Origin: Chrysophaeum taylorii
Taxonomy: Eukaryota > Sar > Pelagophyceae > Pelagomonadales > Pelagomonadaceae
Assembly: GCA_029834535.1 (NCBI GenBank)
Contig: JAQMWT010000263.1
Location: 1 to 34,137 of the forward strand
Direction: 5' to 3'
Length of the DNA: 34,137 bases
Part shown: one piece after another, positions 4,568-33,317 of the stretch
Layout: each line of letters starts with the position of its first letter
Numbering within the stretch: position 1 is the stretch's first letter
Position numbers and translations under genes: made by a program
The notes under the pieces: generated by a model
Database searches by the model: none
The model's input: the letters and a program-made list of their open reading frames with translations, nothing else
What the model was told of the DNA's origin: nothing

Positions 4568-4757
4568 TCGTCGATAACCTTCCGTCTTCGCCCCCCGGCC
4601 ATACCCCGTCCCACTGCGAACGTTCCGGCTGCCAACCGGCCCGCCCGGGAGGCGAATAGGTGCCAACCTAAGCCGGGAGGGCGGATGCCCTCGCAAGGCT
4701 CAGGATTCATGAGGCACCGTCCCCCATCGCAACCGCAGTCGGCGATCAGGGTAAGGG
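4568..4757 (-). mobile_element. SINE-like retroposon, copy 2 (3' half missing)
   Basis: Closely matches the 5' half of the other copies, running leftward from the CCCTTACCCTGATCGCC head at the right end to the TCGTCGATAACC segment at 4568, where similarity stops abruptly. The 3' half and the (GTTA)n tail are missing. Loss of the 3' end is not the usual form of SINE truncation, which removes the 5' end, so deletion or recombination after insertion is likely. The Helitron-side repeat array begins 14 bp to the right. Confidence 0.8.
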
Positions 4758-5869: not shown

Positions 5870-7234
5870 AGTAGCTACCGGGATCCGAACTCGAGACTGT
5901 CAGGCAAGACCAGAGGCTAAGGCCGTATTCTCCATCATCTTCGCTTCGCACACCATATTCGACGGGTGTTGCAAGAAGAAAACCGTTTATAAACAGCATC
6001 GCATTTGGCACATACATTAGCAAAAGAACAGAAAGTAGGGCTCGGGTGAATCGTTTTGAAATGAATCGGCTTCACAAAACGCACTTTTTGTCGGGCCGTT
6101 TCGAACATACATGCTCTAAAGAACAGAAAGTAGAGTCCCGTTGATGTGTGCTCACTGACACACATACATTGGCACACACATACATAGGCATTTGAACAGA
6201 AAGTATAACTAACTAACTTCAGACCTCTCCCGAGCATGGGAGCCAGGCCGGACCGACAGGTGCCAGTCCGGAATCACGGGCCTGTAGACGAGGAGCGCCG
6301 AAAGGTCGGTCGGCGGAGAGTGACCATCAAGCTTGTCGCCATGCGACGAGGAGACCGCGATGTGACTGACAACCAACTCGTCGATAACCTTCCGTCTTCG
6401 CCCCCCGGCCATACCCCGTCCCACTGCGAACGTTCCGGCTGCCAACCGGCCCGCCCGGGAGGCGAATAGGTGCCAACCTACGCCGGGAGGGCGGATGCCC
6501 TCGCAAGGCTCAGGATTCTTGAGGCACCGTCCTCCATCGCAACCGCAGTCGGCGATCAGGGTAAGGGTATATAAAAACAGAAAGTATAGTCCCGTTAATC
6601 TCGAGTCACTCACTGACGGAGGTTTCCCAATTAATTATTGTGGACGAGTAAGGCCAAGTCGGGTTTTTTCGGGCCTTTTCTCGGGGGGCAATCCCACCAT
6701 CGAAATCGACTATCTACTCTACTACGGGATCCGAACTCGAGACGTACCGTCAGGCAACCACAGTCCAACCATGATATTCCATCATCTTCGAGAGATCTTG
6801 GCAAATATAACTTTTATAACTAGCATAGTTTGGGGCACATACAGTAGGAAAAGAACAGAAAGTATCGCCCGGGTAAAGCTTTGGTGAAGTGAAGCGCGTT
6901 TACAAAACGCACTTTTTCTCGGCCCGTTTTCGGGCCGTTTCGCACATACATAGGGAAAAGAACATAAAGTAGAGTTCCGGTAGAGTTCGGTGACTGGCAC
7001 ACTGAGGTTCCCCGATTAAATATTGTGGACGAGTAAGGTCAAGTCGGTTTTTTTCGGGCCTTTTCTCGGGGGGCAAGCCCATCATCGAAATCGACTATCT
7101 ACTCTACTACGGGATCCGAACTCGAGCCGTCAGGCAACCGCAGTCCAACCATGATACTCCATCATCTTCGAGAGGCTTGGCAAAAAAAGCCTTTATAAAT
7201 AGCATAGTTTGGGGCACATAATTAGGAAAAGAAC
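5870..7234 (-). repeat. Tandem repeat family with tRNA-like box, left block
   Basis: Head-to-tail units of roughly 350-390 bp, best seen at 6588-6845 and 6846-7234, with a more diverged unit at 5870-6207. Each unit holds, on the plus strand, GGGATCCGAACTCGAG (5880, 6726, 7111), then a CATCATCTTCGAGAG segment, a TTTATAAA-like TATA box, ACATACAT plus GAACAGAAAGTA, and a TTTACAAAACGCAC block followed by CGGCCCG/CGGGCC stems. On the minus strand GAGTTCGGATCC is one base from a Pol III B-box core, preceded by a weak A-box-like stretch, which suggests tRNA-derived SINEs arranged in tandem. Units share many but not all positions. SINE copy 3 interrupts the block at 6208-6567 and the hAT element interrupts it at 7235. 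Confidence 0.65.
6208..6567 (-). mobile_element. SINE-like retroposon, copy 3 (full length)
   Basis: Same family as copy 1 and nearly identical to it, in reverse orientation: the (GTTA)n tail reads as CTAACTAAC at 6208 and the CCCTTACCCTGATCG head lies at the right end. AACAGAAAGTATA occurs at 6195-6207 and again at 6576-6588, so a 13-bp target duplication is likely, with a few extra bases next to the head. The target is the GAACAGAAAGTA motif of the tandem repeat family, so the insertion is younger than that family. Confidence 0.8.
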
Positions 7235-12597: not shown

Positions 12598-12900
12598 AGA
12601 GATAGAAAATTCTATTTAGGGCTAGTACCCCTCGTATCCTAGGGTTAGCACCTTCTCATCTCACACTAAAAATCAGAAAAAATCGCTGTGTTATCAACAC
12701 CGTGCTGTCCTCGTTGTTAAGAACAGGACAGGGGCAGCCTACCACTGCTCTCACTCTACCGAAGGGTAGCACAGTCGAAATTACTATTCTCTAGGTAATG
12801 CGCACCAGTCCGGTCTCGGTGGGCACCAGTCCGGTCTCGGTAGAGTACCAGGATTTCCAGTTGAGTTCCGCTCTGTGACGTTCCCGAACCAACAAAAAGA

Positions 12901-15086
12901 TGCCAAGCAATCAAGAACTCCACAAAGAGATGCAGCAACATGCTCAAGCACTGAAAGACCAAGAAGTTCGACTAGAGTCAAAGCATAAAAAAGAAATGCA
13001 AGATCAAGAAGCTCGCTTAATTGCACACTTCATCACGCTCGTCAACCAAATGCAGCAACACCAAAACACCCCACCACCTGCCGTCGCAGCAGCGACTGCT
13101 CCCCCCACTACGGCTCCACAAGACCCTAAGAACAAGGCCACCACCTTCTCAGACCCCCCTAGCTCTGTTCTCAAGTCCATGGACGGCGCTCAAGTCACCC
13201 CCCAAATGCGCTCTTACCATGTCATGCAGCTGTTCGTCGAACATCTCATACCCGAGACAGGCATTACTGAATATTTCCAGCAAAGCTTCTACACGTGGGA
13301 ATCCGTCATACGCGGATCCAACGATCTAGCAGACGCTCTCCTCAGCCACTGCATCGAAGAATACGACAAAAGCCCCGCACTCCACGCAATATCTGGCAAC
13401 ACCCCGGATTTTCAAGGTCGCCTGGTCTACTACCAGGGCGTCTACCGCAAAATCGGCAAGGACTTCCTTGACAATATATATGAGCCCAAACTCAAAGAAC
13501 AGCACAACATAAAGATACCACCGATTCGTCGCAAGGAAAGCTCTATCCTATCACGCAACCTCACCTCAAAGATAAAGAAGCTGATTTCATCGTCTACCTC
13601 CGCGAGACCGTACACCCTCTATTCCGCCGTTTTCTGCACGCCGGTCGCGACTCTGTCAAGCACCCCGCATACGACGAGATCGACAAACTCGGATCCTCTC
13701 ACCCCATAGGCCTCGAATTCGTACACCAAGTTCGCATCGCTCTTGACAAGCACACGGGCCAGAACCATGTCCATGCTCAATATGTCTGAAATTCGTTCCT
13801 GGAGACACCGTTCAACCCGAAGATCCACGAACCAACGCACTATATAGACTATATGCTCCATGTCCAACCGCAATCACGTCAAATCACCGACGATCCTTCT
13901 CTCCAACTCGACGACGACACGATAAAAGACGAAACTCCCAAAATACTTCGCTTCAAGTACGTACCCTCCAAGTTTACTTGACTACCGCGCCCCGACTCAC
14001 ATCAAAGGTTTCGCCCGTCTAGCTAAATGTCTTCGTACCCCGAACGACTCTCAGCTCCTCGACGAAGATAAGGCTGCGATTCACCATCTGCCCAAGCTTA
14101 TTGCACGCATCACAGTTATATCAACTTTTGAACGCAGCTTCTGGGCTCACCTCAAGCCCCACCACTCCCTCAACTTCAAGCCTCTCCGCTTTGTCACCGA
14201 CTTCGGTCGTCTGCCGACCAAAGACAAAGACAACCCACGCCTCCGTTCACGCCGTCTTGGTTTCCACCTCACCGAAGATGACGATGACGCTTCTCCTCCC
14301 GAAGACGAGATACCCCCTAATCCAGATTACGCATCTACTGACGACGCCGACCTTGTCGACGCCTTTATCATGGAAGCCAATCTCGACCCAGACGATGATA
14401 ACGCACTCATCCAACACCTCCACGCTTATCGCAAGAAACAACTCACCCGCCACCCTAAGAAAAACAAAAAGCCCCCAAATCCTCGTTCACCGTCATACTA
14501 CGACATCAATGACAGTCCCAAGCCCAAGACCACCCCGGTCACACCCACCAAACATAAGCCGAATCCCCGTGCTCCTCCTGTCACCCCTGACAAACGCGAA
14601 CACCCGCACCTCCGCAAGGTCACATTTCCCACACAAACGCACCCTCCCAAGCCACCCACTCCTGACCAACGGTTCAAAGTCCCACTACGTGATGTTCGCC
14701 GTAAGCTCCAGACCATCCGTAACCTCAGTCAAGCTGGCCGGCAACACACCTCCAACCCTGACCGCATGACCAAGCTCATCAACCTCATCACCACCATCTC
14801 TGACGAGATTCTCCTATCTGAGGCTGATACTGATGCCGCCGACTTCCTTCCGCTCCTCTCCTCCGACCAACCGCCGGATGATCAAGCTGATGAGGGCGTA
14901 ATCGACGACGGCTCGTTATACGATGACCAAGGCCAACTCGGTTTATATGATGACCATGGTCACCTCGGCTTATACGACGATGATCAAGTTCCCGAAATCG
15001 AAGATCAAGAAGACTCCATCGAAGAGTACGTACAACGCCACCAAGACTACATACGTGCACTTCATCAGAGCCGGCTTTTTCACTAA
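12901..15086 (+). pseudogene. Large Gag-like protein of an LTR retroelement, frameshifted
   Basis: An ATG at 12901 opens a protein beginning MPSNQELHKEMQQHAQALKD, with a coiled coil of about 50 residues rich in Gln, Lys and Glu, a Pro/Ala linker and then a helical region (codons 90-200) of the kind seen in capsids. The frame shifts near 13500; its continuation (FIVYLRETVHPLFRRFLHAG and onward) has a TGA near 13788, shifts again near 13965, and then stays open to the TAA at 15084-15086. The last 370 codons are basic and Pro-rich (PKPKTTPVTPTKHKPNP), then acidic with short repeats (LYDDQGQLGLYDD, LYDDHGHLGLYDD). The Gag call rests on this layout and on the protease-like stretch that follows; no capsid family can be proved by eye. 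About 730 codons is long for a Gag. No LTR was identified. Confidence 0.5.
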
Positions 15087-15179
15087 CGGTTGCCGACGAC
15101 GCCTGTGCCGCCAACCAAACAACATTAAATCAGGCACCCAGCGTAGCGATGACAAATTTTCCCACATCATCGACAATTT

Positions 15180-15470
15180 CCAACACAGTCGCAGATTTTT
15201 TGTGCGCTGCATACACCGCAGGAAAACCTTCCAAAAAGACACATTCCCTGCAAGGATGCAACGGTCCCGGCACCGAATTTTTCTTTGCTTGACGGCGGTG
15301 CTTCCTTTTGCTATACTCGCACCACAACAGATTTTACTCATGAATCCATACGCAGGATTCGCGAGCATACCATCCGCATGGGAAGAGGCACTCTCACCAG
15401 CAACTTCATAGGTATAAAACCACTATATCTGCAAGCTGCAGGTCTCTCCTCCCATGACATCAAAGGCTCT
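15180..15470 (+). pseudogene. Zinc-knuckle-like motif and retroviral-type protease relic
   Basis: In the frame at about 15195-15255 a C-x2-H-x9-H-x4-C arrangement (CALHTAGKPSKKTHSLQGC) recalls the zinc knuckle at the end of Gag. From 15285 the sequence reads LDGGASFCYTRTTTDF, close to the LDSGAS active-site loop of Copia proteases, followed by MGRGTLTSNFIGIKPLYL, which resembles the downstream strand of that fold. The catalytic Asp is present; Ser is replaced by Gly before Gly-Ala. Frames change between the two parts. No integrase or reverse transcriptase follows, so the element is truncated or rearranged here. Confidence 0.45.
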
Positions 15471-15646
15471 ACTGGCTACGCATTATATTTGGTTTTCCTA
15501 GTCGTCCCGCATTTCCGACCAGGTTTACAGGTTATAGCGACATCACAGTTAAAAGCCCTAAATGTTCAGGCAACGGACCCGCCGCTGCCGCACAAGCCAT
15601 ATTTATATGAGCTTCTGCAAAATTCTTCACTTTATGGCAATCCACA

Positions 15647-16282
15647 ATGCCTTTGACGTCGGATGCTACGCGACCATGTCTCTGGAACTCCCCAGCCACA
15701 GAAACTGCCAGACAAGAAAGCACTCAGCTCCCCACAGCTGCTCAACAGCTACTTCTGGTCTCGCACATAGCAGCGACTACTATCTCGCAGTCTCTATTGG
15801 ACGACAAGACGAATGATAAGACCACAACGGCTAGCTACACCAGTCAGCCCATTGATGTAGCAGACGAGACAATGCAAACCAGCTGCACAGCACGGTTCCA
15901 GACTAAGCAGACAATGCCCAGGTCCAGCGTTCAATCGCTCAACCAAGCGCACGTTCTGTCACACGAACTTGCACTGCTACTAGCTATGCAAACCAGCTAC
16001 ACAGCACGGTTCCAGACTAAGCAGACAATGCCCAGGTCCAACGTTCAATCGCTCAACCAAGCGCGCGTTCTGTCACCCGACCTTGCACTGCTACTGGCTC
16101 CTGTCCCATTCATGGCTGATGCACCCCATCCGATGGATCAGTCCTCCCGACATGTCCCGCTCGCAGAAGCACAACCGCAGGACGCACAGGTACGTCATGA
16201 AGATACATGTAAGCGCACGACGATTACGCGCACTAGCTCATTGCGCCTATCTGATCACGATGAGATGAAGCTACAACTATGA
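15647..16282 (+). other. 211-codon open frame with a 38-residue internal duplication
   Basis: Starts at ATG 15647 and ends at the TGA closing at 16282. Not recognised: rich in Thr, Gln, Ser and Ala, with no motif. It contains the 114-bp tandem duplication at 15872-16099, an exact multiple of three, so the frame is kept through both units. Most differences between the units change the amino acid, which argues against strong protein-level selection since the duplication. It lies downstream of the protease relic where integrase would be expected but does not look like one. Confidence 0.2.
15872..16099 (+). repeat. Tandem duplication, 2 x 114 bp
   Basis: Units 15872-15985 and 15986-16099 start with ATGCAAACCAGCT and differ at only a handful of sites, so the duplication is fairly recent. 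Confidence 0.9.
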
Positions 16283-21060: not shown

Positions 21061-22263
21061 TTTTCACATTGCTTCCACTTTCAACCTAGAGACAGAAAAT
21101 TTGATGTCACCTGGGCGGAGTCCTTGTAGCAGTGGTAGAAGTGCTCGTCCTCTGTGCGCCCTGTCTCCTTCGACGCAGGGACAGCACTTGACAGTATCAG
21201 GTGACGGGCTTCTTGAGCGTATACGTAGTGTGTTAGCGATATAGAGAGGGGAGGGTTGGTGGGGGGAGGTCATGGCGAAGGAGCCCAAGAGGTTGCGGTC
21301 GTGAGAAGCTTGGTTGTTGGGCTTGATGGCGGGCGACGGAGTCGTCCATGGAATTAGGGGAAGGGTCGGGGAAGGGTTGGGGAAGGTAAGTCGTAGTAGT
21401 TTTAGGCTTCGTCGGAGTGGCTGGATGAGGCCGAAAGTTTGATTCATGGGGGGTGGGTGATGCGGGTGGTGAGGTGTTGGAGGGTGGATTCGGCGAGAAG
21501 AAGGCCTGGAGGGGTGTAGCTGGTAAGGGGGCCGGGTCCGTTGTGTGGGAATAGGGTATGTTTGAGTGGGGAGTCGGCGTAAGATGGAGGTGGGTGACAT
21601 GGTGGAGGCGAAGGAATGCGGTCGGGAGGGGATGGGACTTGGGGAAAGGAGTGTCGTGTGCGGGAGGAATGAGATGGTGTGAGGAGTCCGGGGTTCCGGG
21701 TCCGGGGCCGGGAAAGTCGAAGAGGGGTGGGTCGTGAGAGAGGTTGAGCGGGTTGACGCCCTCAGAAGAGGAACGTGGGTCTGAAGGGAAAATCGGAGCG
21801 ACAGTGGGTATGGCGGCGCAGAAAGACCACTCCCGACCCCCGGGTGAAAAAGGGGGTACTCACCGACTCGTCCTAGACCTCACTGAACGAGGAAAACACG
21901 GACTCGGGGTCGGGTATGCTCGCCACACACCTTGCTCACGCTCACCAAGCCCCTCAACAAGATGGAGAGATGGTATATGATAGCAAGAATGCTACAAGAA
22001 TACAAGAATGCTTCTCACAAGAGAGAGGTATGATGTCACTAGGAAGATAGGGAAAGGCGTCCCGTTGAACGGGTATCAAGCCTCGAGAGAGGGAGGGTAA
22101 GCCTTAGCGGTCAGGAGTTGCCGCCACAGGACTCCCCTGGTGAGAACACGAGCTGCCCTCGGCGAGTCCAGCGAGAAGCACGAGCCTTGGCTGAATGAGC
22201 GTCTCGGGAACGAATCTTCTCGTAGACGCGCTCAACGACAGGTTCGGGAACGCGTCCACAACG
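21061..22263 (-). other. Downstream region of the Gypsy element; LTR expected but not demonstrable
   Basis: The strand bias switches here: from about 21230 the plus strand becomes G-rich. On the minus strand a 178-codon Pro-rich frame (21600-21064, ATG start, beginning MSPTSILRRLPTQTYPIP) has no known domain. The 3' LTR of the Gypsy element should begin soon after the pol stop at 22264, for instance in 22263-21850, but the 5' LTR is not in the window, so the repeat cannot be verified. No clear polypurine tract was identified. Confidence 0.3.
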
Positions 22264-25200
22264 CTAAGTGAACTTAGGAATCAACACATCGATCTCATGC
22301 GGGGCGAAGTCGGTGACACAAGGAGTGGTACTGTTGTTGACCTTGGTCTTGTCGGTGAAATTGTGACCGTCCACGTCCTTGTATTCCGACTTAAGCTTGC
22401 GAGTAGAGAGATGTGAGGTAGGCTTGTAATAAGAAACCTTGTCATGGGGACCAAGATCGGCATAGAAGTGCAGAGCGACTCGATCATTCACAAAATCATA
22501 GGGTTCATAAACTTCAGCGACGTAAATCTTCTTTCGCCAATCGGACCGTTTGTTATCCGGAATCCGAAAGACAACGAACTTACCATGCTTGTAATCATCC
22601 CGAAAGGTCTCCTTGGGCTTGGGCACAGCTCGATCGACCACTGGAGAAACCATCACAGGGGTGATCTGGCTAACATGAACACAACGGCGTTCAGGAGGAT
22701 AATCAAGAGACTCAACCCTGTAAGTGACCGGGGACAAACGTTCCAAAATAACGAATGGACCGCGCCATTCCGGTCGAAGCTTGTTCTGAAGAAAAAGAAT
22801 GCAGAGCAGAACATGTGAACCTTCGTCATACTCCACATCAACATGGTCCGCATTGTAGGCGAGACGTTGTTTACGAAGAGCCTTCTCGCGAGCTTCGTTC
22901 ACCGTAGCGGTATAGAACTTCAGCCTCTCGCGAGTCTCTGCCACAACATCGGAGCGAGTTTTCGGCAAGCGGCGGACATCAAGATCCATGATCGTGTAAT
23001 CGGTTGGCAATAAAGGCTGCCGGTTAAGACGAAGCATGAAAGGTGAAATCTGAGTTCCGGGAATAAATTTGCGATTGTAACAAAAAGCAATGTACTCCGC
23101 GAATTCGGGCCATTCCGTGATCTTGCGGTTTTGAAGGCACCGACGGAGGAAAGCCTTGATAAAGCGGTTGACCCTTTCCGCAGGATTAGCCCGAGCATGA
23201 TACGGAATCGTGGTACTATACCGAACATTGAAGAGATGACCAAACTCTTCCATCAACTTGTTGACGAACTCTTTCCCATTGTCGGTACGAATCCTCTGAG
23301 GTAGATAACCTTTGAGTAATATATTCGCGACAAAAGACTCGAGGATTGACTCAGCAGTCTTATGGTGTAGTACGTCAAGAATCAGGAAACGAGAAAATGG
23401 ATCAACAAAAATGATCAGATATGTCTCTGGACCAGCAATGGGCAAAGGCCCAAACAAATCCATACAAAGGACGACGCAATCACCATCATACACCGGTTGC
23501 TGAAGCAGACCTGCTCTCCTTGGTTCAGGCGCACGAGCTTTCTTGCACACTATGCAACCAGCAATGTAAGCACCCACCTCATTAGACAGGTGGGGCCACC
23601 AAAAACGTTCAAGTATCGACTGCACTGTACCTTGACGACCCATGTGACCACCATTGAGAGGTGTGTCATGGTACAATCGGATGATGCGCGTCCGTGAAGT
23701 TCGGGGTGCGACTATCATCGGGTGCAAGTCGGGTGCGGCACGGTAAAGAACTCCTTTTACCTCTTGATAGCGATAATTGGCTCCGTACCGACGAAGAGAA
23801 TGGCCCTGAGCCATGCGATAACGAATGTCCTCGCAAGTAGCATCAGTGATCTGCTCTTTGGCTATCTCTTCCAAAGTCAAATTATCCGGAATCTTGTCGA
23901 TGTACTCTTGGTAATCATCGGCATCACGGAAAATACTAGGCTGGGTCTGCAGACGTTGCTTCTGACGTTGTTTCGTAGCATGAGACGTGACCAATTGCAT
24001 CGGATCGACAGAGCGAGGGAGTTCTTGGCACACTAGATACGCGTGGTTCAAGGGTTCACCAAACTCGTCCGTCTCGATGACATGATCTATAGGATTGCGA
24101 GAGAGACAGTCAGGGATACTCATTCCCGGCGACTTCCCTGGCTTGTAACCCAATTCAGGATCAAAGTTGGCGAGCCGCATCGCCCATCGAGCCAACTGCC
24201 CAGACGAGTGCTTCGCCTTTCGTAAAAACGTCAAGTTGCGATGATCCGTTTCAAGGATCGTCTTGTGACCTTCGATATAAGAGCGGAAATGCTCAAGAGA
24301 AAGAATAACTGCCAGTAGCTCTAGCCGGCGAGGCTCATAGTTCTGCATCTCTTTCGGCACAGCTCGGCTCCAATACTCAATTACTCGTTCCTCTCGTGTC
24401 ACCATACCGGTTTCGTTCTTGACTTCCACGAGCTGAAAAAGATACGCGCCCAGACCATCCTTGGAAGCATCCGAGCGGATCTGAAAAGGAAGATCGTAGT
24501 CAGGATGATAAACTCCGCGAGAGTCCACCAAAGCTTCGATGATCGTGTCCCATGCCTTTTGGCACTCAGGCGTCCACTCAAACTTAATGCCTTCGAGACA
24601 TAATCGCCTAAGCGGCTCCACAATCTTCGAATAATTCTTCACATATCGGCGGTAATAGTTGCTCATGCCGATGAAAGATCGAATCTGGGTCTTCGGGGAC
24701 GTGTTCGGCAACGTACCGGGAATCGGCATCTGCTGCAACGCTTCTAACGTCTTGGGATTCGGCTTCAAGCCTCCCGGAGTCGAAATGTGTCCCAGAAACT
24801 CGATTTCATCTTCGAGGAGGTGGAACTTCGAAGTTCGTCCACTATATCCTCGCTGCGCTAAATGGCACAGCACTTCAATCAAGACTTGTAAATGACGGTG
24901 GAGTTCATCCGATCCCATCATAATATCGTCGACAAACGCGACCAAGTCCCTATACATCCATGTGGACAAATCGCTAGCCATCTGCCTACAGAAGAGAGCT
25001 CCTGTTGTTTTCACTCCCAGAGGCAAGCGCAAGAAACTATGGGCTCCTAGTGGACTAACCATCGTAACGGCGTCCTGAGCGGCGGCGTCCAAACGTAGGT
25101 TATGATAACCCCATCGAACATCAATGCACGTCCGCCAATGGCGCATGGCAAGAAAAGCCAAAGCATCATCTTGACGAATATTCGGCCAACTGTTATTGAC

Positions 25201-25920
25201 CAGCTGATCATTGAGCTGACGCAAGTCAACTGCAGCACGAAAAGCATTCGACGTCCCGGCCTCTGCTCCCTTCTTAGGCAGCATCAGTACAGGGAATCCC
25301 CACGGAGAGTTCGCCGGTCGGATGACTCCATCACGACACCACTCAGTGATCTGCTTTCTGAGACACTCGAGCTTTGCTGGCGTCAACCTATAAGCCGTCA
25401 TCTTGATCGGTCGTGGGTTTGCGTCTTTAAATCGTAGAGAAACCGGTGGCGAGTCCACGGGTCTCATAATCGGATCAAAGAAAGCCCACGCGTATTGCGC
25501 GCAGTGGCTCAACATCATCTTCGCATCATCATCCTGATGCGGGTTGTCGGGAATTCCCAGATCTCGAACAACCTTTTCGACTTCTTCCTTCGTCGGAATT
25601 ACAACTTTCATCGCATCATTGTCCTTGACGTGCTCGGGAGTCTGCGGTAACGGTACACCGTCCGCATCGCGCGGCGCATCCTTCCATGGCACATCGAACT
25701 TTTCTTCGTATTTGAACCTCACCTCAGGGTGGCTCTTATTGATCTTTTCACCTTTGACGCGCACATCGGCTCGCTCCTTACTTTCGGCTCCTCTGTTCAG
25801 GTTCAGGATCCGGCGGAACGTCCACTTTTGATTGTCCGGGGGGGGGCAGCAGAAAAAGCATGAGCCGTCCCCGGCGCATCTGTTGGAAGCGGAAGCATAG
25901 GAACTTCTGGCGTTTCCCAT
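22264..25920 (-). CDS. pol: Ty3/Gypsy Pol polyprotein (RT-RNase H-integrase), intact
   Basis: This 1,218-residue frame has no internal stop. Reverse transcriptase spans about residues 165-380, with AFVDDIMMG (FVDD at 329-332). RNase H follows, with SDASKDGLGAYL (Asp 484), RRLELLA (Glu 534) and TDHRNLTFL (Asp 559). The integrase has an HHCC zinc site (His 751 and 759, Cys 789 and 792) and a complete catalytic triad: Asp 821 in MDLFGP, Asp 880 in RTDNGKEF and Glu 915 in NPAERVN, with the canonical 35-residue spacing. A GPF module lies at 1054-1056 (EWRGPFVILERL). About 120 residues follow with no obvious chromodomain but a compact stretch, GKFVVFRIPDNKRSDW to HFYADLG. No protease or Gag lies in this frame. 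The first 28 residues overlap the upstream methyltransferase-like ORF in another frame, so translation may depend on frameshifting at 25838-25846. It makes and integrates cDNA of the element. Confidence 0.93.
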   Translation of the reverse strand: MGNARSSYASASNRCAGDGSCFFCCPPPDNQKWTFRRILNLNRGAESKERADVRVKGEKINKSHPEVRFKYEEKFDVPWKDAPRDADGVPLPQTPEHVKDNDAMKVVIPTKEEVEKVVRDLGIPDNPHQDDDAKMMLSHCAQYAWAFFDPIMRPVDSPPVSLRFKDANPRPIKMTAYRLTPAKLECLRKQITEWCRDGVIRPANSPWGFPVLMLPKKGAEAGTSNAFRAAVDLRQLNDQLVNNSWPNIRQDDALAFLAMRHWRTCIDVRWGYHNLRLDAAAQDAVTMVSPLGAHSFLRLPLGVKTTGALFCRQMASDLSTWMYRDLVAFVDDIMMGSDELHRHLQVLIEVLCHLAQRGYSGRTSKFHLLEDEIEFLGHISTPGGLKPNPKTLEALQQMPIPGTLPNTSPKTQIRSFIGMSNYYRRYVKNYSKIVEPLRRLCLEGIKFEWTPECQKAWDTIIEALVDSRGVYHPDYDLPFQIRSDASKDGLGAYLFQLVEVKNETGMVTREERVIEYWSRAVPKEMQNYEPRRLELLAVILSLEHFRSYIEGHKTILETDHRNLTFLRKAKHSSGQLARWAMRLANFDPELGYKPGKSPGMSIPDCLSRNPIDHVIETDEFGEPLNHAYLVCQELPRSVDPMQLVTSHATKQRQKQRLQTQPSIFRDADDYQEYIDKIPDNLTLEEIAKEQITDATCEDIRYRMAQGHSLRRYGANYRYQEVKGVLYRAAPDLHPMIVAPRTSRTRIIRLYHDTPLNGGHMGRQGTVQSILERFWWPHLSNEVGAYIAGCIVCKKARAPEPRRAGLLQQPVYDGDCVVLCMDLFGPLPIAGPETYLIIFVDPFSRFLILDVLHHKTAESILESFVANILLKGYLPQRIRTDNGKEFVNKLMEEFGHLFNVRYSTTIPYHARANPAERVNRFIKAFLRRCLQNRKITEWPEFAEYIAFCYNRKFIPGTQISPFMLRLNRQPLLPTDYTIMDLDVRRLPKTRSDVVAETRERLKFYTATVNEAREKALRKQRLAYNADHVDVEYDEGSHVLLCILFLQNKLRPEWRGPFVILERLSPVTYRVESLDYPPERRCVHVSQITPVMVSPVVDRAVPKPKETFRDDYKHGKFVVFRIPDNKRSDWRKKIYVAEVYEPYDFVNDRVALHFYADLGPHDKVSYYKPTSHLSTRKLKSEYKDVDGHNFTDKTKVNNSTTPCVTDFAPHEIDVLIPKFT

Positions 25921-26936
25921 TTAGTGGGATCCTGGAGATCGTCCTTTGACACCCACTTAACGACACGAGTACGCGTATTTAACAGCGGAATCTCTACGTG
26001 ACGAAAGGTGGTGTCGGAGATTCGTAAATACTGCTCAAAGGATCGATCTGTCGGGCTCAGCGCGGTCGGCAGGACTTCGCCACTTTGGCGGAAACCTCTG
26101 GTCACGGAGTTGTGCAGATCGACTGCTAGAATCGCAAGAGTGTCTGGAGGGACGACAGACGCGGAATGTTTGAACGAATCCGTCTTAGACAAGCTAGCCC
26201 AATCATGGTCCACCGGCATCGCGAGCAACTCGGCCGTCATCTCGAGAGTCAAAGGCGGAGTGTCCAAGCGATGCGGTCCCAAACGAAGAGGAACCCGCGC
26301 AACGGTGTAAGCCGTATCTGTTGCTTCTCGGGACGAGCCAAGATTATTCAGCTGGAGCAGGCGGCGTTCATGAGCATAACCTAAAGCTGCAGCAAATTTT
26401 TGTTGCATGTTCACACATGTCTTCGGAGCCTCTTGCAAGTGCAGTGGGTGACTGGAAACCAACAATCGCACGCGAGAGCTCATCAAAGTGGGCGTGATAT
26501 CATGAAAATTGACGACGTACACGTAAGGGTGTAAGCGCGCTACATACGAAATAATGGACGCCTCCTGTTCAATCAGCCACATCATGAAGCCAGCCATTTT
26601 GCACAGCTTCATCGTCCAGTTAGTGGCCGTAACACCCCTGCCAACATCTCTGGATGTCAAGTTGCATAGTGCTGAATGAACGCAGGGTGGAGACGCTATA
26701 CACATCGACGATGACCATTCCGCTTCAGGCAAATAAGCCTTGATCAACCGGAGGGTCGAGTCATATCGTCCGCAGAGCGTGTGCTGAACCACAGGTATCT
26801 TCGGAAAATTCTTCTGATGAACCTTGTTGGCAGCTGTTGAAGAGTCAAGAGCAAGGACGACTCGAAACGACGTCCCGCACAACTCGTTCGCTCGTTGCAG
26901 TCCTAAAGTACTTCCTCCGGCGCCGCTACCGAGCAT
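25803..26936 (-). CDS. Cytosine-5 DNA methyltransferase-like protein fused ahead of Gypsy Pol
   Basis: Known C5 methyltransferases flip out cytosine and methylate it from S-adenosylmethionine. Seen here are GSGAGGSTLGLQRA (residues 3-16), matching the SAM-binding motif I (F-x-GxGGxxxG type); VLALDSSTAANKVHQKNFP (28-45), matching motif II with its acidic residue and the Nxx-F ending; and CIASPPC at 79-85, matching motif IV with the catalytic Pro-Cys. PTLMSSRVRLLVSS (about 148-161) resembles motif VIII. The motif VI position reads VVNF rather than ENV, the VI-VIII spacing is short, and no motif X (GNSV) is visible, so activity is uncertain. Residues 170-377 are unassigned. The ATG used lies inside the abutting SINE, just before motif I, so the real N-terminus is lost. 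The end overlaps Pol by 118 nt. Alternative: another Rossmann-fold methyltransferase. Confidence 0.55.
   Translation of the reverse strand: MLGSGAGGSTLGLQRANELCGTSFRVVLALDSSTAANKVHQKNFPKIPVVQHTLCGRYDSTLRLIKAYLPEAEWSSSMCIASPPCVHSALCNLTSRDVGRGVTATNWTMKLCKMAGFMMWLIEQEASIISYVARLHPYVYVVNFHDITPTLMSSRVRLLVSSHPLHLQEAPKTCVNMQQKFAAALGYAHERRLLQLNNLGSSREATDTAYTVARVPLRLGPHRLDTPPLTLEMTAELLAMPVDHDWASLSKTDSFKHSASVVPPDTLAILAVDLHNSVTRGFRQSGEVLPTALSPTDRSFEQYLRISDTTFRHVEIPLLNTRTRVVKWVSKDDLQDPTKWETPEVPMLPLPTDAPGTAHAFSAAPPRTIKSGRSAGS
25838..25846 (-). promoter_or_regulatory. C9 run, possible -1 frameshift site joining methyltransferase and Pol frames
   Basis: On the minus strand nine consecutive C residues lie in the overlap of the two ORFs. 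Reading one C twice takes the methyltransferase frame (...SAAPP) into the Pol frame (PDNQKW...). Retroelements often express Pol through a -1 shift at such slippery runs. A replication slip or an assembly error in the homopolymer would look the same. Confidence 0.4.
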
Positions 26937-27261
26937 GGGAGCCAGGCCGGACCGACAGGAGCCAGTCCGGAATCACGGGCCTGTAGACGAGGGGCGCCGA
27001 AAGGCGGGTCGGCGGAGAGTGATCATCAAGCTTGTCGCCATGCGACGAGGAGACCGCGATGTGACTGACAACCAACTCGTCAATAACCTTCCGTCTGCGC
27101 CCCCCGGCCATACCCCGCCCCACTGCGAACGTTCCGGCTGCCAACCGGCCCGCCCGGGAGGCGAATAGGTGCCAACCTACGCAGGGAGGGCGGATGCCCT
27201 CGCAAGGCTCAGGATTCATGAGGCACCGTCCTCCATCGCAACTATGCGGTCGGCGATCAGG
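26929..27261 (-). mobile_element. SINE-like retroposon, copy 4 (3' tail missing)
   Basis: The family match runs from the CCTGATCG head at the right to GCTCGG at 26929, but the terminal segment and (GTTA)n tail are absent. The left end joins directly to the methyltransferase-like ORF and provides its ATG (26936-26934). The right end joins the outer end of the inverted arm (GGTAAGTCA, 27262-27270). Sitting at the junction of two unrelated sequences with no tail, it marks a deletion or recombination breakpoint rather than a simple insertion. Confidence 0.8.
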
Positions 27262-29110
27262 GGTAAGTCACGTGGGAAACCATCCCGTCTCATCGTGAGC
27301 GTCTGGAAGGTTAATTCGGGGAATGAAAAGTTATGTTCCCTATATCCTCAGAACACGACAGGCGGCATCTAGAACTACACGAGAAATGTTAAGTGTATAG
27401 TGCTACATACCTCGGGACGCGCTAGACCATGATGATGAGCGTAGGCACAAATCAGAGGACTATTTGATTGTGTAGAACGGAAGAAGAAGGGTAAGGAAGA
27501 GATCACGTTCTCGACGGACGGATAAGGGTAAGAGGCGGCAGATTTCTCTGCACCCCCTCGAGATGTCTTAAGCGCAAGGTGCGACTGTAGAGCATCTATT
27601 GAGAAAGATGATGAAGAAGAAGAAAAAAAAAAAGGAAAGGAAGGAGAATACAGTCTTGATGGTCGCAGAGGTCACATAAGAGCCATCAAGAGTGTAACAG
27701 GGTGTCTTAGGGCTTGGACTTGGTGGAGCTGAGAGTCGACTTGACGCTTTTCAACAGAGCATTACGAAACACGGGTACGACAGACAGTGTGTTAAAGCTA
27801 TCTGAGGTGGTGGACGTTACTGGTTCGAGAGTATCGGTATCGTCTTCGTCAGCTTCTGCTGTCAGGCGGTGAACGCCAATAGTAGAATGGTATGGTACCA
27901 TACGAAACGTGAGTGCAAGTAAAGCATTCAGTAGGGATGGCACTAGTGAGTCAAGTTGTAGGGTGTCCAGTTGGTTTTCCAAAAAGTTGGACTCAGCGAA
28001 CGGATCCGAGAGGATAGAAGGGTCTTCCAATTCACATGCGAAGGACTAACTAACTAACTAACTTCAGACCTCTCCCGAGCATGGGAGCCAGGCCGGACCG
28101 ACGGGAGCCAGTCCGGAATCACGGGCCTGTAGACGAGGAGCGCCGAAAGGTCGGTCGGCGGAGAGTGACCATCAAGCTTGTCGCCATGCGACGAGGAGAC
28201 CGCGATGTGACTGACAACCAACTCGTCGATAACCTTCCGTCTGCGCCCCCCGGCCATACCCCGTCCCACTGCGAACGTTCCGGCTGCCAACCGGCCCGCC
28301 CGGGAGGCGAATAGGTGCCAACCTACGCCGGGAGGGCGGATGCCCTCGCAAGGCTCAGGATTCATGAGGCACCGTCCTCCATCGCAACGGCAGTCGGCGA
28401 TCAGGGTAGGGAATGCTTTGGATACACGAGAGCAAATTATCACGTAGACGATGGAGGTGATCGTCCGTGGAGGAATGGTTGGCGGCATATTGGTCATGAG
28501 CTGTTAGCGTTAAGCGAGACAGTAGCTCTGTGATCTTGAACAGTGTTACACGCAACACGTGTGCATTGGCTGTAGGAGGAAAGAGCCGGTTTTCCAGGGA
28601 GGTAATTGAAGCAATGGCTGCCTGTAGATCTGTGTGCAGAGGTAGATTCTCAGCGCTAAGGCTGTTGACCTTGCGAATATATAGGCGAAGAGTTTATTGG
28701 AGTTGTTCGACTTGTTGACGCAATGCATCGACATCATCAGGCGAGGCAGAAGGAGCAAGGTGTGTCGATGGCGAAGACATTTCCAGAGTAGATTCTGATG
28801 AGGGAAGTGAGTAGTTAAATGACATTTCGGTCAACACATGCTGTGCAAGTAGGGGGTTTTTCGTGTTTAGGAAGTGCAGAAAGTCTTGACGTTCGGCCGA
28901 AGTATAGGTGGGACCGAACATTACATCCAAGAGTGATGGCGGCTTTGTATCGTCTGAGGATGATACGTAGTCGTCAAGGTGTTGTACCCACGATTGGATA
29001 ACGGTATGAATCACATGGTGGCATTTGGTGGGCTTGAACATAGCCTGAGTTTTACGAGCTTGTGTTCGCTCGAGCGTTACAAGAAAGTTAAGATGCTCCA
29101 GGTGCATCTG
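27262..29110 (-). repeat. Left arm of an inverted duplication
   Basis: Homologous in reverse orientation to about 31990-33300. The outermost roughly 200 bp (27262-27465) match the right arm at about 95% by eye. The next 250 bp and the coding part are clearly less similar, roughly 70-80%. SINE copy 5 (28045-28407) is present only in this arm. The inner boundary is approximate. Poly-A/GA-rich sequence lies at 27605-27650. Confidence 0.75.
28045..28407 (-). mobile_element. SINE-like retroposon, copy 5 (full length)
   Basis: Nearly identical to copies 1 and 3, with four TAAC units of tail at 28045-28060 and the head at the right. It splits the left-arm coiled-coil gene between the codons for CIQSIP and ACELED; the right arm has the uninterrupted equivalent (FSIPPVSCESED), giving an empty site. 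No target duplication longer than TCC is visible. Confidence 0.85.
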
Positions 29111-29417: not shown

Positions 29418-31277
29418 AGCCATTGTTGGTCCTGACGAATATAAGGTCCAAGAAGCTGACGTTCCCATTGACGAATATAAACTCAAGTGCCTCCACGGTT
29501 TGTCGCCTGAAAACAGGCACGCCTACCTCAAGGCCATCGCCAAGGAACTCCACGACATTATCCGCGTTGGCTGCTTCAAATTTTCCTTACCCGACGGTGT
29601 CTCTCGTCCTATTGACAGCAGGATGGTGCTGAAGATTAAAACAGACTCTGCAGGCTAATACGTCAAGCACAAGGCTCGCCTCGTGCTACGTGGCTTCCTA
29701 GCATCTCTTGGCGCCGATTTCTTTGGCACCTTCAGGCACATGGCCACCATGACCGCAATCCGGGTACTACTAGCTATTGCAGCATACAAGCAATTGCCTC
29801 TCTACCATGCAGACGTCCCGAACGCCTTCGTTCAGTCTGACATTGATGCTAACGTCTATGTTCAGTTACCAGACGGCATCAAGCTTATCGACCCCGATGA
29901 CGCTAAGTACAAGGGCCGACGTCTACCGAAACTGCTGAAGTCACTTTATGGACGTAGGCAATCACCATCCCTTTGGAACAAAGAGATAGACGGCTTCTTC
30001 CGTAGCCTTGGCTACAAACGCCTGCATTCGGACTCTTGCCCATATGCTCGAGTATCCGCACATGCTAAGTTCGTCGTATGCAGTCTGTCTGTAGACGACA
30101 TTGTTATTGTGTCAAATGACGACCCTCTTCGTACTGAATTACAGGATGCCCTCCACAGACGGTATGCTGTAGAGCAGTTTGAACCTGTCCATACCCTCCT
30201 AGGCATGCGTGTGTGTCGCACATCTGACGGCTCCATTTCTCTGGATGTGCAAACCAAGCTGGATGAACTCTTCGCTGATCACCCAGTCTTGCAGCAACTG
30301 ACCCCGCTTAAATATCCTATGTCATCGTCCTTCAAGTATAAAGATGGCACTCCCAGCTCTGAAACAGAGTTGTACATCAATTCGCACTTTGCGACCCTCC
30401 TTGGCAAGCTGGTGTTCATGCAAGTTGCCTGCAGAACTGACTTCTCGCATGCCTTGGGCAGATGTTCGCGTGGTATGCATGCACCTACGTATGTTCACGT
30501 CCAAATGCTAGAGCATTTACTTCGCTACCTCAAGAAGCCGGAAAACCGCTCACTTCGCCTCTGGTTTCACCCTAAAGGTAATGCCATTGAAGCTCACCTT
30601 CGCACTGTCTCCGCTAATCGAATTGATCTATCCACTGTGGTCGACTACCAACCCTTGAGGTGTGTACTGGAGAGTTTGACCCCTTAGTTGCCATGGTTGA
30701 CGCTGACAATGCCCCTTCCTTAGCACAGGAAGATAGGAAATCTACCACCGGGTTTGTCTTCTATCTTTTCAACTGCCTTATTGGTTGGAAAAGCCAACTT
30801 CAACCGATTGTCTCCTGCTCAACTCACGAAGCTGAGTTGATTGCCCTCAGTATTTGTGCCGATGAAGCTGTTTGGCTACGAAAGCTGCTGTTGGAACTCT
30901 CCTTTGTCGTCAATCCCACCTTCTACGTCAACAATGCTAATGGTGAGAACACCGCTGACCCTGTCGACTTCGATGACAATGACAACCCAATTGCTGAAGA
31001 TATGCGCTTCATCAGAAGCCTACCTCTCTTGTCTGACAATGCTGCCGCTGTTCACACCTCTAATAACCCAGATGGGCCTTCTCGATCCAAGGCACTGTCG
31101 ACTAGATGGTTTAAAATCCGTGAGTACATCTCGCTACAGAAAATACGAGTCCATCATGTTCCCGGCAAGCTGAACGTGGCGGATGGTTTTACAAAGCCAC
31201 TTGCTGCTGAGTTCTCCACTTTTCGTTCTCTACTCGGTATGCATCATGCTTCTGACGACAAGCCTTTACAGGATTGA
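29418..31277 (+). pseudogene. Ty1/Copia reverse transcriptase-RNase H fragment, broken
   Basis: The sequence starts within the N-terminal part of a Copia RT (SPENRHAYLKAIAKELHDII), continues through VLKIKTDSAG, a TAA (29656-29658), then YVKHKARLVLRGFLASLGAD. Next are the DVPNAF block (usual DVKTAF), LPKLLKSLYGRRQSPSLW and SVDDIVIVSND, the active site with Ser in place of the usual Tyr. After a frameshift near 30660 the RNase H follows: VDADNAPSLAQEDRKSTTGF, then IVSCSTHEAELIALSICADE, and the terminal VADGFTKPL box before TGA 31277. Gag, protease and integrase are missing, so it is 5'-truncated. The RNase H part lacks further breaks, but the fragment is non-functional as a whole. It lies at the centre of the inverted duplication. 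No LTR was verified. Confidence 0.88.
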
Positions 31278-31989: not shown

Positions 31990-33300
31990 ATGGTCACATC
32001 CCCATTATCACAACACCGATCAGTTTACTTGTGACTCGTGTACGAACACAGAGTCGCACAGCTCGGGCTATACAAGCCATCCATTCAGCATTTGATTACT
32101 ACTGTTGCTCGATCGCGTGTACAACATCTTAACAACTACGCATCATCCTCTGATGATACAGAACCGCTATCACTCCGGGATGTAATGTTCGGCCACACTT
32201 ATGTTCAGGCAGAACATTAAGGCTTCCTGCACCCCTTTTTTTTTTAAACGTTGACCGAAACGTCGTTAAACTACTCACACTCCACGCTAGACGCTACTCT
32301 GGAGATATCTTCGCCACCGTTACCTACGCCTTCTGCTTCGCTTGCTGATTCCGACTTCTTGTGCCAACAAGTCGACCAACTCCAGGACTTTCAATCACCT
32401 CCCTGGATAACCGGCTTTCCTTCCTACAGCCAACACTCCACGTGTCACTTGTACACTGCGCAAGATCACAAGCTATTGTCTCGCTTCTTAACACTCGCCG
32501 CTCATGATCAACATGCTACCAAATCACTCCTCCTCGGACGATCACCTCCTTCATCTACGTGCAATGCTGTTTCATGCTTCAGCATTCCGCCCGTCTCATG
32601 TGAATCTGAAGACTTCTATCTTCGTTCGCCAATCCAACCTTTTTTGAAACCAACTGCACACCTTTCAACTAGATCTCTGTCGCCATCCGTACTGAATGCT
32701 CTATTGCACTCACCCTTCTCTTGGCCCACACATCATTCAGCTATTGGTGTTCACCACACACCGCGCAGAAGCTGACGATGATTACTAATCCTAACACACT
32801 GTCTGTTGTATCTGTGTTTCAATGTTCGGTTCAAAAGGGGTAAAATCGACTTCAGCTCCACCAAGTCCAAGTCCAAGTCCTACGACCGTCTATACTCTGA
32901 TGCTTGTATGTACCTCTGTGACCATCAGCACTGTATTCTTTATTTTATTTTTTCTTCATCATCTCTTCTCAAGAGATGCTCTATAGTCGCACCTTGGCCA
33001 AGAACATCTGAGGTGCAGGAACTGCTGCCTTTACCCTTCATCCGTCCGTTGAGAACGGATCTCTTCCTTACCTTTCTTCTTCCTTTCTACACAATCAAAG
33101 TCCTCTGATTTGTGCCTACGCTCATCATCACGGTCTAGCGCGTCCCGAGGTATGTAGCACTATACACTTTACCTTTCTCGTGTAGTTCTAGATGCCGCCT
33201 GTCGTGTTCTGAGGATATAGGGAACATACCTCTTCATTCCCCGAATTAACTACTTCCAGACGTTCACGATGAGACGGGATGGTTTCCCAGGTGACTTACC
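31990..33300 (+). repeat. Right arm of the inverted duplication
   Basis: Reverse-complement homologue of 27262-29110 without the SINE. Its outer end, TGACTTACC at 33292-33300, mirrors GGTAAGTCA at 27262-27270. Similarity in the left arm stops there because of SINE copy 4, so the duplication may once have extended further. A deletion and a T run (32237-32246) mark decay in the coding part. Confidence 0.75.
32020..32890 (+). pseudogene. Coiled-coil protein, right-arm copy, decayed
   Basis: Collinear with the left-arm protein. NNYASSSDDTEPLSLRDVMF at about 32130-32190 parallels DDYVSSSDDTKPPSLLDVMF, then comes a TAA at 32218-32220 and a short deletion with a T run. ETSLNYSHSTLDATLEISSP parallels the left-arm EMSFNYSLPSSESTLEMSSP; CQQVDQLQ parallels RQQVEQLQ. 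After that SRFLTLAAHDQHATK and SPSVLNALLHSPFSW match left-arm segments, and the frame ends at 32775. Roughly 70% DNA identity by eye. Breaks rule out a full-length product. Confidence 0.6.
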
Positions 33301-33317
33301 ACTGCTTGCTAAATGCT

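Follow-up and report, generated by a model that had tools for sequence, protein, structure and literature searches.

A Ty3/Gypsy retrotransposon family of Chrysophaeum taylorii with a cytosine-5 methyltransferase-like domain in Pol

DNA methyltransferases (DNMTs) are found in LINE and DIRS elements of Symbiodinium and in a Gypsy element of Klebsormidium, as described in passages of PMC5890265, where the abundant Symbiodinium Copia elements are reported to have no DNMT domain. We describe here a comparable arrangement in Chrysophaeum taylorii, found in a 34,137-nucleotide stretch of its genome (contig JAQMWT010000263.1, C263 in our numbering), which is called the window below. It consists of an open reading frame (ORF) that resembles a cytosine-5 methyltransferase (C5-MTase, or MTase) and adjoins the pol of a Ty3/Gypsy retrotransposon.

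The nearest known systems, going by the passages of PMC5890265, are KnitGypsy-Dnmt3 and the SymbioDIRS and SymbioLINE elements. That the element is related to the cases in a dinoflagellate and a charophyte had been suggested from the sequence alone, and agrees with that account. KnitGypsy-Dnmt3, from Klebsormidium nitens, is like the present element in having a C5-MTase in the Gypsy Pol ORF, and in its many intronless copies, which are under purifying selection and keep the key residues. It differs in that its enzyme clusters with Dnmt3, where we found no Dnmt3 match, and in its DIRS repeat arrangement, where we see ordinary direct long terminal repeats (LTRs) in the one copy examined; unlike KnitGypsy-Dnmt3, the present family has hundreds of copies, which fall into three or more diverged subfamilies. 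SymbioDIRS-Dnmt3 and SymbioLINE-Dnmt are likewise retrotransposon DNMTs present in great numbers in an alga, with the DIRS type having the domain in Pol, but they belong to other element classes (DIRS and LINE).

According to passages of a review (PMC6338049), stramenopiles, charophytes and both red and green algae have Ty3/Gypsy and DIRS elements that encode DAM or DCM, and the novelty of a Gypsy case alone is therefore weakened; these passages do not say which lineages have DAM and which DCM, and contain no Copia case. The section seen of PMC12344493 has one sentence that names "LTR Copia" among retrotransposons with an embedded DNMT3, with no anatomy given. This may be a slip, because the source that it cites, PMC5890265, describes Gypsy, DIRS and LINE elements in its corresponding passages. 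The passages of PMC9998398, PMC12477816, PMC5963040 and PMC3145265 show no LTR element with such an MTase, although those of PMC12477816 describe a DNA transposon with an MTase of the N4/N6 type. No further LTR-element C5-MTase turned up in the passages retrieved from the open-access literature.

Organization and abundance of the Gypsy element

The two overlapping minus-strand ORFs named in the sequence-only reading are both present (Table 1), and the motifs claimed for the upstream one, GSGAGGSTLGLQRA, KNFP, SPPC and RVR, can all be read in its translation. The motif numbers used for this ORF are labels that we presume to apply. The identification of the neighboring ORF as a Gypsy pol is borne out by five Pfam domains over their cut-offs (RVT_1, RT_RNaseH, Integrase_H2C2, rve and Integrase_p58_C), and the profile matches in this ORF and its relatives follow the Ty3/Gypsy order of reverse transcriptase (RT), RNase H and integrase. 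One LTR is recognized in the window, a probable 3′ LTR downstream of pol.

The MTase was originally thought to overlap pol and to take the position of Gag. The two frames do overlap in the window, but they do so at a run of C that is nine long here and varies from 5 to 9 among the other copies compared, and in copy L011 the MTase and RT are in one open frame of 3067 amino acids (aa). A frameshift signal at the run is not supported: the junction folds no better than shuffled sequences do (z 0.56), and the run length is variable. The Gag position is contradicted by the longer copies, whose order is an upstream (Gag-like) part, a retropepsin-like stretch, MTase, RT, RNase H and integrase. In nine of them (L011-L019) several hundred residues, including the retropepsin-like stretch, which was recognized by eye, separate the upstream part from the MTase, and the domain is thus inside Pol, behind the protease-like stretch and ahead of RT; in L020 the retropepsin-like stretch is mostly missing. 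The protease-like and Gag-like pieces that were tried gave no Pfam match over cut-off, and no zinc knuckle turned up in the element sequence inspected. A 2707-aa piece of L011 was scanned, and gave matches to PF00145 (DNA_methylase), RVT_1, RNase H and H2C2, together with a sub-cut-off match to rve at the cut end. This copy, on contig C5, is the single one examined for its ends, and has identical 336-bp direct terminal repeats of the form TG...CA. Inside its 5′ LTR, TGGTGGAGGAATACGAGATTCGA resembles by eye the complement of a tRNA end, as a primer site would, and no target-site duplication was seen at this copy.

The copy in the window is a truncated relic. It ends upstream where a dispersed repeat starts, at a joint with the sequence ATGCTC; because element and repeat share these letters, the start codon of the ORF is inside the repeat. 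The N-terminus reads MLGSGAGG where longer copies have YRKVVMLFSGAGG, and the aligned N-terminal stretch is MLGSGAGGSTLGL in the window copy and YRKVVMLFSGAGGSTLGL in the longer ones, so that the window copy is short of 11 residues of the aligned domain and of the motif I Phe. The intact N-terminus looked for in the earlier interpretation is therefore not found in the window, where the ATG is supplied by the repeat, while longer copies extend further. The repeat itself is about 360 bp long, with copies 92-99% alike, one of which terminates in GTTAGTTAGTTAG; it gave no match to Rfam or to tRNA.

The genome searched comprises 70.8 Mb in 697 contigs. With the window ORF as query, at least 110 matches were obtained at 109 or more places, 85 of the 110 being free of internal stops. 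A second form of the domain (B) gave at least 121 matches and raised the total to at least 159 places, and a third (C) gave at least 129 matches and at least 118 additional places, resulting in at least 277 places for the Gypsy MTase, which include fragments and also some alleles, since certain contigs look like haplotigs (C10/C297). In their MTases, subfamilies A and B are about 20-23% apart, and C is 38-41% identical to A and to B; many further matches near 80% to the C form are among those listed in the genome search. It is concluded that the Gypsy-MTase family consists of at least three diverged subfamilies, with copies in the hundreds.

The RT clade of the window has 131 RT matches, 51 of which have one of the MTase matches listed for the window ORF directly upstream. 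Twenty of the other 80 loci were fetched: 12 because their open frames are long, seven because they came first in the list, and the one on contig C634 for its host genes. All 20 have MTase sequence, in L093 only its last 38 aa, and the MTase is therefore present at 71/71 examined loci of this clade (51 + 20). For a second RT clade, 42 matches were picked by their profile range, leaving out short ones on C420 and C130; 29 of them have an MTase match within about 2.6 kb upstream among the matches listed, and one of the 29, on C225, was read directly and has the MTase. Of the other 13, with no such match listed, one (L099, on C335) was also read and has no MTase; the MTase is therefore present at 29 of 30 settled loci of the second clade. 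The suggestion that every family member carries the gene hence holds throughout the examined part of the window clade, if the 38-aa tail is counted, but fails at L099.

Evidence for a cytosine-5 methyltransferase domain

The profile search proposed for the window ORF gave a divided outcome. The ORF itself matches PF00145 with 15.9 bits (E 0.0088), which is below the curated cut-off of 22 bits, but several relatives are above it: the frames of L012, L015 and L016, the L016 domain, and L098 (22.1-38 bits), while the long frames of L011 (19.3 bits) and L018 (17.7 bits) miss it. The L016 domain is the best of alignment A1, with 28.7 bits (E 1.2e-6) over motifs I-II. All 15 members of A1 match PF00145 at E<=0.1, although as close relatives they are not independent. 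The match of L098, from subfamily C, reaches 38 bits (E 1.7e-9) and is split into two stretches; the stronger one corresponds to positions 257-321 of the profile, the region of motifs IX-X. The same motifs of the C form align weakly with a classical cytosine-specific MTase (8yf3).

Residues were surveyed at 38 loci, which include the window copy as L001 but not L005 and L015, since these repeat L004 and L010. The Cys of catalytic type in motif IV is kept at 34/34 readable loci, the Glu of motif VI at 34/35, and both Arg of motif VIII at 36/36. In motif I, Gly18 is found at 33/33 and Gly19 at 32/33 readable loci, and Phe14 at 32/33, the sole exception for Phe14 being the window copy. Asp42 is found at 31/33. 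Between subfamilies A and C, motif columns are more alike (35/62) than columns elsewhere (89/265; Fisher p 0.0008), with the motif blocks being chosen by the analyst. The short spacing between motifs VI and VIII was first taken as a Dnmt3-like trait, but a Dnmt3-type origin gained no backing from the PDB matches for the window ORF, A1, A3 or C, among which there is no Dnmt3 chain.

The ratio of nonsynonymous to synonymous substitution (dN/dS) was calculated with L005 and L015 removed and L018 omitted because of its gaps. For the MTase it is 0.17 over 45 pairs within A and 0.20 over 15 pairs within B, and for RT 0.20 over 6 pairs within A and 0.19 over 3 pairs within B, the pairs sharing history and hence not being independent. 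Between A and B the values are 0.07 for the MTase and 0.02 for RT, where dS is saturated near 1.8. As a control, the MTase DNA read in two shifted frames gave 1.4-3.8. The MTase frame is under purifying selection, similar to that on RT. Taken with the profile matches of the relatives and the conserved motif residues, this upholds the original description of a Gypsy element with a C5-MTase-like domain.

Three protein searches found no outside relatives at the thresholds used (6634, 6483 and 7999 candidates). Two viral scans gave none either, and neither did the host DNMT2 as a viral query; a viral scan with E. coli dcm found 27 dcm relatives, none of them informative here.

A Copia family with its own methyltransferase, and host genes

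The PF00145 search of the genome listed 57 matches, two of which are host-type genes. Among the other 55, 49 are at places of a Copia element with its own MTase, L033, L035 and L036 are alike, and three further matches remain. In L041, DNA_methylase (32.1 bits) shares a single 1952-aa frame with RVT_2 (E 1.6e-38), and a match to rve under its cut-off falls between the two; L042 also has DNA_methylase and RVT_2 in one frame, making two of the two frames scanned. A protease-like site, DGGASFCFT, is directly ahead of the Copia MTase, which has the motifs PCQ, ENV and RYLAV, and matches TIGR00675 with E 1e-8, under the cut-off. The family gave at least 131 matches at 120 or more places, haplotigs and fragments counted, and one of its copies has 167-bp direct repeats, 98% alike and 9.2 kb apart. 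The window contains the 5′ part of a relative of this family, and a 114-bp tandem duplication follows it.

The idea that the Gypsy and Copia MTases share an origin was considered and gained no support. No reliable similarity was found between them, the profile comparison giving nothing usable and pairwise scores being marginal at best, and judging by these comparisons the two are likely to be of independent origin.

One of the two host-type genes is a DNMT2 gene on contig C634 (E 3.9e-39 to 1g55), a contig on which the Gypsy-MTase copy L097 is also found, together with a light-harvesting gene whose best PDB match is VCPI-6 (E 6e-18). Provided that this contig is not chimeric, the gene content makes the host probably an alga with a plastid of the red lineage, and an alveolate (Perkinsus) host, an early guess, was dropped on this ground; 5.8S rRNA gave no match. 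The other host-type gene is a DNMT5-like gene (L046, 3468-9725 on the plus strand of contig C621), in which DNA_methylase and SNF2 are in one uninterrupted 2086-aa frame, on sequence of about 61% guanine plus cytosine (GC). The host-gene contigs have 60% GC and the elements 52%. No DNMT1 or DNMT3 was recognized in the host among the matches listed in the six-frame PF00145 search.

Some further features were observed. The window has a Copia RT fragment, and an inverted pair of sequences 91-97% alike, which are possibly the LTRs of another element (Table 1). Elsewhere in the genome, contig C696 has eight RVT_1 matches, perhaps organellar group II introns, and four of the eight rank with the genome's strongest.

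Table 1. Features of the window and locations of the Copia-MTase loci
Feature	Position	Strand	Remarks
Probable 3′ LTR	21811..22128	-	starts TGTGGCGGC, as does the LTR of the contig C5 copy
Gypsy pol ORF	22264..25920	-	1218 aa; RT, RNase H and integrase
C5-MTase-like ORF	25803..26936	-	377 aa; 5′-truncated
Nine-C run at frame overlap	25838..25846	-	
RVR, motif VIII-like	26474-26466	-	in MTase ORF
EQE, motif VI-like	start 26570	-	in MTase ORF
SPPC, motif IV	26693-26682	-	in MTase ORF
Dispersed repeat truncating the element	26923..27242	-	supplies ATG; "SINE-like" is the analyst's label
Further copies of dispersed repeat	2059-2421, 6206-6567, 28047-28408; partial 4568-4757		
5′ part of Copia-MTase relative	12820..15653	+	Gag-like, protease-like, SLLDGGASFCYT; stops before MTase; from blastn (74-83% to Copia-MTase loci) and translation
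Tandem duplication	15872-16099		114 bp
Inverted pair	27253-27504 / 33058-33309		
Copia RT fragment	29683-30687	+	RVT_2 E 3.5e-28
Copia-MTase loci L041-L044, L047	contigs C96, C314, C582, C328, C681		

Possible role of the domain and alternative explanations

The arrangement was also considered as a chance junction, in which a truncated piece of another gene came to be beside a Gypsy pol. The window copy taken alone, whose Pfam score is below threshold and whose start codon is in a repeat, looks compatible with this, but an arrangement that is the same at each of the 71 loci examined in the clade, in a family occupying at least 277 places with long shared frames, with selection on the frame and significant PF00145 matches in relatives, is not; such a junction had been named as what would undo the original claim, and it can be regarded as ruled out, its probability being negligible.

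The window holds a 5′-truncated copy of a large Ty3/Gypsy family that has a C5-MTase-like domain in Pol, and we consider it somewhat probable that the element methylates its own complementary DNA (cDNA) before or at integration. The MTase would be made as part of Gag-Pol, and would enter the particle together with RT and integrase. There the element's own double-stranded cDNA would be methylated before or at integration, and new copies would arrive already marked. The mark could be maintained by a host enzyme of the DNMT5 type, and marked copies may pass as native DNA, or may have their own expression damped. We infer a function in the replication cycle because the MTase is beside RT in Pol, its residues are conserved, and the selection on it is like that on RT. 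Methylation of the cDNA in the particle would be the simplest reading, and is in agreement with the CG methylation by SymbioDIRS domains in yeast, described in passages of PMC5890265.

Several results weigh against this proposal. TIGR00675 is far under its cut-off for every protein tried (E 0.22 for the window ORF), and a sequence search of the PDB gave no significant match for the window ORF, A1, A3 or C. The top match of the window ORF is an enoyl-CoA hydratase (E 0.3), although C5-MTases are among the non-significant matches in each case (3/5 for the window ORF, 2/3 for A1, 5/6 for A3, and the single match of C). Motif VI is EQE or ERE in place of ENV. The observed/expected ratio of CpG is 1.0-1.3 in the elements and 0.82 in the LTR, which is no depletion, so that the elements bear no footprint of prolonged methylation and deamination; there is no depletion in the host contigs either (1.3-1.4). 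The Klebsormidium Gypsy domain had no activity in yeast, a result its authors call inconclusive (PMC5890265, in the passages available). Finally, in L099 (C335:26300-27500) protease-like sequence joins directly to sequence 96% identical to the post-MTase part of the C form, with broken frames, and this locus may be either a deletion or an older, MTase-free form.

The C5-MTase might instead act on RNA, either that of the element or a primer tRNA, in the manner of DNMT2. Most of the solved structures that the A/B domain matches are of DNMT2 or tRNA C38 MTases, and the host DNMT2 is the top scorer against A and B among the proteins compared (E 0.002-0.009); RNA methylation has also been raised for LINE elements, in passages of PMC5890265. 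These DNMT2-type matches are non-significant or marginal and confined to motifs I-II, whereas the C form does not lean towards DNMT2 (E 0.13-0.14) and has a cytosine-specific MTase as its single PDB match, and double-stranded DNA is made by the element in the same particle. We regard an RNA substrate as unlikely. The domain might also have kept the fold but lost methyl transfer, and serve to bind nucleic acids or as a structural component of Pol, which appears improbable to a similar degree. The altered motif VI and the low overall similarity to known enzymes would fit such a role, but nearly all readable loci retain the Cys of motif IV, the glycines of motif I, the Glu of motif VI and the arginines of motif VIII, and the motif columns are more alike than the rest between A and C.

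Returning to methylation of the cDNA, the Copia C5-MTase occupies a corresponding place after a protease-like site, and this suggests that in this host the cDNA of LTR elements is under some pressure. We put forward tentatively, as a possibility that falls short of being probable, that Gypsy and Copia elements acquired their C5-MTases in separate events, both times right behind the protease, and that each then reached at least 100 places. This would be a convergent self-methylation of cDNA, driven by a host barrier against unmethylated incoming DNA.

The passages of PMC5890265 document, in dinoflagellates and a charophyte, retrotransposons that bear the very class of enzyme by which such elements are commonly silenced. 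In C. taylorii, C5-MTases occur in large numbers in Gypsy as well as Copia elements, the two major LTR superfamilies, alongside a DNMT2 and a DNMT5-like gene in the same genome. Provided that the enzymes are active, pre-integration methylation of new copies, and whether it is a benefit or a restraint for the element, would be directly testable. The elements in this genome may mark their own DNA.

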